A DNA stretch of 64,000 bases. Origin: an uncultured Rhizobiaceae group bacterium. GTDB taxonomy: Bacteria > Pseudomonadota > Alphaproteobacteria > Rhizobiales > Rhizobiaceae. The DNA lies in the NCBI GenBank assembly GCA_938010435.1, contig CALLUS010000002.1:1-64000 (forward strand), given 5' to 3'. The position numbers and the translations under genes were made by a program. This document shows, piece after piece, positions 10,303 through 11,237 of the stretch (the stretch's first letter is position 1; every line of letters starts with the position of its first letter). The notes under the pieces are model-generated. The model searched no databases. It saw only the letters and a program-made list of their open reading frames with translations, and was not told where the DNA came from.

Positions 10303-10686
10303 TCAGGCGTAGCTGACGACCTCAAATTCAATATTGTCTTGATTGTGAAAATAAAAACGGCGTCCGGGTTCATAGTCGGCATGGGAGTGTGTTTCAAAAC
10401 CCATCTCTTTGACCTTTCGCTCAGTCCTATCCAAATCATCAACCACGACACCAATATGGTTCAATCCACCCTTGATCTCGTATGATGTGGATGCAGGCGC
10501 TGTTGTTTTAAGCGGTGAATATAGAGCAACGTAAGAAGTGTCGTTGCCTACATGGGCAGAGTAACCGCCATTCATAGAATCCCCTTCCCAACGAATTTTC
10601 CACCCAAACAGCTCACACAACTGTGCGGCAGTCGCCTTTGTGTCATCTACCGTGAAATTAACATGTTCCAAAATTGCTGCATTCAT
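10303..10686 (-). CDS. VOC family (glyoxalase-fold) protein
   Basis: 127-residue vicinal-oxygen-chelate protein with two beta-alpha-beta-beta-beta units. The first starts ILEHVNFTVDD and the second GLNHIGVVVDDLD; the C-terminus carries the metal-type Glu in NIEFEVVSYA. His in the first unit, His in the second and this Glu could form a metal site. The substrate is unknown; the family includes glyoxalases, thiol transferases for fosfomycin, and dioxygenases. The gene is divergent from soxR, and a SoxR-type promoter (10724-10754) points at it, so induction by redox-cycling compounds is likely. Confidence 0.85.
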   Translation of the reverse strand: MNAAILEHVNFTVDDTKATAAQLCELFGWKIRWEGDSMNGGYSAHVGNDTSYVALYSPLKTTAPASTSYEIKGGLNHIGVVVDDLDRTERKVKEMGFETHSHADYEPGRRFYFHNQDNIEFEVVSYA

Positions 10687-10723
10687 CTGTTTTATTCCTC
10701 GTGTTGAACTTGATATTTGCCTG

Positions 10724-10754
10724 ATTGTAATTTCTCAAGTTAACTTGAGGTCAA
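10724..10754 (-). promoter_or_regulatory. SoxR-controlled promoter with 19-bp spacer
   Basis: On the minus strand the -35 TTGACC (10749-10754) and -10 TACAAT (10724-10729) are 19 bp apart, the over-long spacing typical of MerR-family promoters. The spacer holds the perfect palindrome CTCAAGTTAACTTGAG (10734-10749), matching the SoxR operator known from soxS promoters. It reads towards the VOC gene. The site also lies 26 bases upstream of soxR, so autoregulation is possible. Confidence 0.93.
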
Positions 10755-10775: not shown

Positions 10776-11237
10776 ATGCGTGCATCCGACCTTCTTTCCA
10801 TTGGTGAAATTGCACGTCGTACAGGGCTGTCAGTATCGGCAATTCGTTTCTATGAGGAGAAGGGCTTGATTGAAAGTGAGCGCAATCGTGGCGGGCAGAG
10901 GCGATTTTTGAGGCGGGACATTCGCAGATTGTCTTTTGTTCTGATAGCGCAGAAATTCGGTTTCACGATTGGTGAAATCAAGAAGCATCTCGACACGCTG
11001 CCCAATGGGCGTACCCCCACAAAGGCCGACTGGGCCAAAATGAGCCAGACATTTCGGCAAAAGTTGAACAATCAGATCGATCATCTCACGCGGCTACGAG
11101 ACAATTTGGACGGATGTATCGGATGTGGTTGCCTGTCGCTTCAAAGTTGTGCGCTTTACAACCCCAACGATGAAGCAAATGAATTGGGCGATGGCCCTCG
11201 GGTTTTGCTAGGTGATAATCTGGAACCCAAAACTTGA
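10776..11237 (+). CDS. soxR: Redox-sensitive regulator SoxR
   Basis: 153-residue MerR-family activator. The HTH starts LSIGEIARRTGLSVSAIRFY at residue 7 and a coiled-coil dimerisation helix spans about 85-113. The [2Fe-2S] motif follows, with Cys114, 117, 119 and 125 (C-x2-C-x-C-x5-C). In SoxR, oxidation or nitrosylation of this cluster by redox-cycling drugs untwists the 19-bp promoter. Length and motif are diagnostic. No soxS follows, as expected outside enterobacteria, where SoxR directly controls a few target genes. Here the visible target is the divergent VOC gene. Confidence 0.96.
   Translation: MRASDLLSIGEIARRTGLSVSAIRFYEEKGLIESERNRGGQRRFLRRDIRRLSFVLIAQKFGFTIGEIKKHLDTLPNGRTPTKADWAKMSQTFRQKLNNQIDHLTRLRDNLDGCIGCGCLSLQSCALYNPNDEANELGDGPRVLLGDNLEPKT

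Follow-up and report, generated by a model that had tools for sequence, protein, structure and literature searches.

A VOC-superfamily gene divergent from soxR as a probable SoxR target in a Rhizobiaceae bacterium and other Alphaproteobacteria

In the window, the whole stretch of 64,000 nucleotides analysed here from an uncultured Rhizobiaceae group bacterium, a small VOC-superfamily gene and soxR are encoded divergently, and a SoxR operator lies within the promoter of the VOC gene (Table 1). Based on the sequence and on its comparison across genomes, we regard direct regulation of the VOC gene by SoxR as highly likely; that the VOC protein removes the inducer or its product has roughly even odds. 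Taken as a whole, the reading that SoxR switches the VOC gene on directly, and that the product is a metalloenzyme that inactivates the inducing redox-cycler or a product of it, has a probability of about 0.6. Because a large number of related bacteria have retained the soxR-VOC pairing, the enzyme very probably belongs to the defence against redox-cycling chemicals. The proposal of an earlier note on this DNA that it detoxifies redox-cycling metabolites is plausible.

Table 1. Features of the soxR-VOC region, with positions in the window.
Feature	Positions	Strand	Basis
VOC-superfamily gene (127 aa; triad H8/H77/E122)	10303-10686	minus	open reading frame, PF13669/PF00903, conservation, VOC fold
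Shine-Dalgarno-like GAGGAA, ending 8 nt ahead of the VOC ATG	10695-10700	minus	read from sequence
Candidate soxR promoter, TTGAAC-18-TAATTT	10704-10733	plus	by eye, weak
VOC promoter -10 element, TACAAT	10724-10729	minus	sequence; TA conserved at equal distance in 118 aligned promoters
SoxR operator, perfect 16-bp palindrome CTCAAGTTAACTTGAG	10734-10749	strandless	sequence and conservation before VOC genes
VOC promoter -35 element, TTGACC	10749-10754	minus	sequence; spacing the same in 118 aligned promoters
soxR (153 aa; redox-sensitive MerR-family activator with CIGCGCLSLQSC)	10776-11237	plus	TIGR01950, E. coli SoxR 2zhg

The earlier note had described a SoxR promoter aimed at the VOC gene at 10724-10754, and this range is exactly the stretch from the -10 to the -35 element. 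The perfect palindrome, the 19-bp spacer and the two hexamers on the VOC strand were all confirmed in the sequence. The operator is contained in the spacer (10748-10730, minus strand), so that the region has the form of a SoxR-activated promoter, whose -35 and -10 elements are separated by an over-long spacer of 19 bp that contains the SoxR box; the -10 element is 37 bp from the start codon at 10686. On the minus strand, the 18-mer CCTCAAGTTAACTTGAGA matches at 17 of 18 positions the SoxR box of E. coli cited in excerpts of PMC4411124. The VOC promoter is absent from a generic sigma-70 consensus scan because the scan takes spacers of 16-18 only. The candidate soxR promoter was not picked up by the consensus scan either; a transcription start from it would fall inside the operator, making autoregulation possible.

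The divergent gene encodes a SoxR with all four cysteines, as had been claimed. The protein scores 189 bits against the TIGR01950 equivalog model (cut-off 116.9), its CX2CXCX5C cluster-binding motif is CIGCGCLSLQSC, and its residues 3-144 align with E. coli SoxR (2zhg). Among the SoxR proteins linked to a VOC gene, 107 of 109 carry the four-cysteine motif, and the remaining two sequences are truncated or masked. Another SoxR-like frame, interrupted by a single in-frame TGA and perhaps a copy in decay, is present at G007:C1:1403226-1403654 and G183:C9:1419161-1419586.

At up to three mismatches the SoxR palindrome has a single match in the window, the site itself (shuffle mean 0.20), and its only exact copy in the 3.57-Mb genome (3,570,319 bases in 37 contigs) is the VOC operator. 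This uniqueness, together with the conservation of the promoter before VOC genes, argues against the palindrome being a chance match and the VOC gene lying outside SoxR control, a reading to which we give next to no weight. The pattern TTGANCTNAAGNNNNCTTNAGNNNTTA, allowing up to two mismatches, matches once in this genome, at the VOC promoter. A looser promoter pattern adds one non-palindromic match, and its backwards control also yields one; the strict 18-mer with a free centre has no match in the genome, and the VOC site itself deviates from it at one end base. With up to three mismatches the palindrome is found at five genome sites including the VOC site, the other four having two or three mismatches. 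Such weak sites look like noise, because the backwards control gives 24 matches, exceeding the pattern itself. The next-best palindrome-like site (C2:137950) is inside a phage-integrase-like open reading frame. The earlier note's idea of a one-gene regulon beside its regulator therefore stands for this genome at the thresholds used. It is not a rule, because 9 of 20 related genomes show more than one promoter-shaped match. Some of the additional matches lie ahead of genes resembling MFS transporters (L188, L194, L198; site at 1501-1527), and the others look like chance matches (backwards controls, 9 matches in all).

We compared 199 genomes of the family, defining close VOC homologs by an E value below 1e-40 and SoxR by a best E value below 1e-25. 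At E 0.001 the VOC gene is detected in 23 genomes, two of which (G029 and G078) were left out since their sole matches are weak (E 4.9e-4 and 3.3e-5), leaving close homologs in 21 of 199. In front of all 21 VOC genes, TTGA runs directly into a recognisable SoxR box that differs from the E. coli 18-mer at 1-5 positions. At 19 of the 21 loci soxR is divergent in the same stretch; in one of the remaining genomes (G109) soxR and the VOC gene are both at contig ends, and in the other (G164) the sole SoxR is located elsewhere, away from the VOC gene. The VOC homolog is found in 21 of 91 soxR-positive genomes (counted by eye from the table) versus none of 108 soxR-negative genomes (Fisher test). Since the other 70 of the 91 soxR-positive genomes are without the VOC gene, it is not a core SoxR function. 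Distances between VOC proteins and between SoxR proteins are correlated (Mantel r 0.53, none of 2000 permutations as high), a result that we do not count as evidence because shared species descent also yields such a correlation. For the nearest SoxR proteins from loci without a VOC gene (L040 and L042, 61-62% identity), the stretch examined contains no box that could be recognised. In another SoxR subgroup (L055, L056, L057 and L059), the SoxR box faces an open reading frame of 127-158 aa, which begins with a sequence like RxxIxDEVxSWxGV and, by eye, is not related to the VOC gene.

The VOC gene is found in 15 of 297 genomes of the order sample and 14 of 385 of the class sample. A scan of GTDB genomes recovered at least 575 VOC relatives, the best 80 of which were kept; many of these 80 are labelled as Rhodobacteraceae, Roseobacter-group genera, Thalassospira, Roseibium or Hoeflea. 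Together, 129 alphaproteobacterial loci, including the best 80 of at least 575, collapse to 120 distinct VOC sequences. A fixed promoter pattern, written as a regular expression and expected about 0.004 times per 450-bp upstream region, precedes the VOC gene at 118 of these 120 loci, and the comparison thus strongly supports the earlier note's claim that the VOC gene is a direct SoxR target. The 118 promoters align without gaps as TTGACCTCAAGTTA[AG][CG]TTGAGGAATTA with constant spacing, and soxR is divergent at 108 of them and downstream at one. The pattern was found before none of six weaker VOC matches. It also overlooks some recognisable boxes (L203, L210, L232, L233 and L266, the last with a degenerate SoxR box only). 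Twenty further alphaproteobacterial loci (L201-L213 and L232-L238) were kept out of the 120, and 16 of them match the pattern. In Ruegeria sp. TM1040, the pair is on a megaplasmid and is annotated as SoxR and VOC family protein.

In the family of G737 (whose VOC sequence is identical to that of L064, titled Rhodobacteraceae), the VOC gene is detected in 83 of 198 genomes, sampled one per genus. The best 30 loci of this family provided 27 new stretches, two of them duplicates of earlier sequences, and the promoter pattern is present in 26 of the 27. The occurrence of a VOC gene with a SoxR promoter across so many genera, here and among the wider set of relatives, points to a common detoxification step.

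A natural test of the regulatory link is provided by the 11 of 120 distinct loci with no soxR in the stretch, nine with the box and two without it. In all nine boxed cases, the genome carries SoxR on another stretch, and for the two box-less loci (L078 and L113, both from metagenome-assembled genomes) no SoxR was found in the genome. The box thus persists where soxR lies elsewhere, and both loci that lack it are in genomes where the search turned up no SoxR, which argues for direct control by SoxR; the negative half of this comparison is weakened because metagenome-assembled genomes are incomplete and L113, titled Phycisphaeraceae, is possibly mis-binned.

Within a sample of the phylum, 41 of 398 genomes match the VOC protein at E 1e-15, eight of them outside Alphaproteobacteria. 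One of the eight (L223) has a close VOC homolog with soxR and the box, and the other seven VOC proteins share 27-34% identity with that of the window. Two of these diverged gammaproteobacterial loci (L228 and L229) combine a divergent soxR with an 18-bp SoxR box that is perfect, three (L225, L226 and L227) have the box with soxR not nearby, L230 has soxR and a weaker box, and L224 has no box. L231, a diverged second VOC copy that comes from within the class, has no box. A VOC gene on a Vibrio plasmid (36% identity) is preceded by TTGACC-19-TAGGCT surrounding a SoxR box, with no soxR in the surrounding 6.4 kb. Similar boxes precede VOC genes on Pseudoalteromonas and Vibrio campbellii replicons and at L242, and the gammaproteobacterial VOC gene of L241 is without a box. 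This gammaproteobacterial branch is rare, occurring in 3 of 219 genomes in an even class sample.

The VOC protein exceeds the Pfam cut-offs for PF13669 (40.4 bits, cut-off 27) and PF00903 (40.2 bits, cut-off 20.6), and its AlphaFold model (mean pLDDT 86.4) has an ordinary VOC fold that matches VOC structures; domain and fold both place it in the superfamily. No curated functional model reached its cut-off, and assignments are at the superfamily level only. Eight residues (H8, H45, Y52, H77, H102, Y105, E120 and E122) are invariant in an alignment of 101 VOC sequences that leaves out loci whose sequence is masked, stop-bearing or short; 98 of the 101 have Ala at position 54. Both VOC branches are spanned by a set of ten sequences in which H7, H44, Y51, H76 and E121 (numbered without the Met) are invariant. 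By alignment, H8, H77 and E122 are predicted metal ligands, and the site looks like a two-His, one-carboxylate triad. Such a triad is described for extradiol dioxygenases in excerpts of PMC3143149, and the 2-His-1-carboxylate site of the type I enzymes is present by alignment in 101 of 101 sequences. Those enzymes are large four-motif, two-domain chains (DHBD has four motifs according to excerpts of PMC3143149), whereas the VOC protein has 127 aa and one VOC domain.

The best structural match to the model is E. coli GloA (1f9z; Z 14.6, rmsd 2.2, 115 residues), and other neighbours are GloA2, TnmS3, FosA, FosX, ChaP and L-DOPA dioxygenase. The closeness of GloA, GloA2 and FosX would suit a direct SoxR target that is a thiol-dependent enzyme like FosA or glyoxalase I, adding glutathione to, or isomerising thiol adducts of, electrophiles that arise from redox stress (quinones, enals and oxo-aldehydes). 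Redox-cycling quinones are also electrophiles, and weak profile matches to GloA (11 of 21 family members) and FosA (1 of 21, the window protein having no match, although its fold is similar) point the same way. However, the window protein reaches only 23.8 bits against the glyoxalase I model (GloA, NF050074; cut-off 165), and in a profile alignment it has an Ala opposite a Gln of methylmalonyl-CoA epimerase 1jc4, a fourth-strand residue that we take to be the fourth metal ligand of that enzyme. We consider the thiol-dependent enzyme unlikely.

TnmS3 is also structurally close, with tiancimycin or riboflavin bound (5w27: Z 12.8, rmsd 3.0, 114 residues; 5umx: Z 12.6), as would be expected if the SoxR target only bound and sequestered a redox-active drug, with no turnover, like TnmS and bleomycin-resistance proteins. 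The invariant His-His-Glu and the further invariant His, Tyr and Glu look catalytic, and sequestration appears improbable. The TnmS proteins and FosA/FosX resemble the VOC protein in their single-chain VOC fold and similar size when compared by structure, but share only 14-25% sequence identity with it in the structural alignments, and we know of no SoxR control for any of them.

A SoxR target could also repair a damaged endogenous metabolite and leave the inducer alone. Ten of the 21 family members have weak matches to methylmalonyl-CoA epimerase, and the wide distribution shows no clear tie to a toxin-producing niche among the matches listed. Yet the window protein is far under the cut-off of the epimerase model (TIGR03081; 25.5 bits versus 114.95), and in the family sample the VOC gene is seen only together with soxR; such metabolite repair seems very improbable.

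Sensing and activation are established for other SoxR proteins, and in this organism induction would follow the same course. SoxR would bind the operator in the VOC promoter, whose -35 and -10 elements are set 19 bp apart, farther than usual; oxidation of its [2Fe-2S] cluster by redox-active compounds would then remodel the DNA and turn the VOC gene on directly, and the same operator may damp soxR itself. The product would be a small metalloenzyme with a 2-His-1-Glu site and an open coordination position. It could inactivate either the inducer, a compound resembling a quinone, phenazine or flavin that may be attacked when reduced and with the help of O2, or something formed from the inducer. 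Only a limited set of redox-active compounds triggers SoxR, so the candidate substrates are few. More tentatively, and in our view doubtfully, SoxR and VOC may together make up a two-gene defence system that is widespread in Alphaproteobacteria and has a diverged marine gammaproteobacterial counterpart. The VOC proteins would then be a so far unrecognised group of small enzymes with a His-His-Glu site that use O2 to destroy reduced forms of natural redox-cycling antibiotics or quinones, with the inducer as the substrate.

A VOC enzyme, TxDE, breaks down toxoflavin, a superoxide producer, when this compound is reduced and O2 is present (excerpts of PMC3143149). Like the protein studied here, TxDE belongs to the VOC superfamily; it acts on a compound thought to produce superoxide and depends on O2 and metal, as is proposed here for the SoxR-linked protein. 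It differs in its larger four-motif chain and His-Glu-Glu metal site, and these excerpts describe no SoxR link. Because it uses one His and two Glu and is a larger protein, the precedent that TxDE offers is loose.

In non-enteric bacteria, the known targets of SoxR activation are mainly pumps and oxidoreductases. One of the closest arrangements is that of Stenotrophomonas maltophilia, where soxR is divergent to a single target, mfsA, whose promoter has TTGACC, a 19-bp spacer and the box between -35 and -10, and where oxidised SoxR activates the over-spaced promoter directly; the target there is an MFS efflux pump rather than a VOC protein (excerpts of PMC4411124). Similarly, the SoxR of Streptomyces coelicolor directly controls a small set of enzymes and transporters with a presumed role in processing redox-active metabolites, but excerpts of PMC4146615 name an ABC transporter, oxidoreductases, a monooxygenase and an epimerase/dehydratase among its targets and no VOC protein. 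In Shewanella, a glyoxalase-like gene of the azr-SO3586 operon is under a regulator and has a proposed role in superoxide protection, but this regulator, AzrR, is of the AsnC type and is not SoxR (excerpts of PMC3223726). Excerpts of PMC3223726, PMC4741518, PMC9355187 and PMC11975290 contain no SoxR-VOC link. The architecture of SoxR promoters is well known; we found no description of the conserved SoxR-VOC pairing, or of a SoxR-controlled VOC protein, in the open-licence literature, and RegPrecise or subscription papers may record one. The "SoxR" of Hyphomicrobium sulfur oxidation is reportedly a repressor that responds to sulfane sulfur; it is an ArsR-type protein and shares only the name.

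Some loci have an extra small gene between the SoxR box and the VOC gene. In seven of them (L068, L077, L090, L091, L103, L117 and L119), the box is about 230-245 bp from the VOC gene and the interval contains an open reading frame of 57-72 aa with a RYCADPxALSAMKRDGLGWGHDLECGCF-like motif, for which two examples gave no Pfam match; judged from its position, it may be a second SoxR-controlled gene. At L010, whose VOC sequence is identical to that of L074, the interval between the box and the VOC gene encodes a DUF1127-like protein (1144-1464) that scores slightly below the Pfam cut-off. Finally, at L160 the VOC gene is followed downstream by three further, degraded tandem copies of its last ~160 bp (G752:C7:66556-67061).
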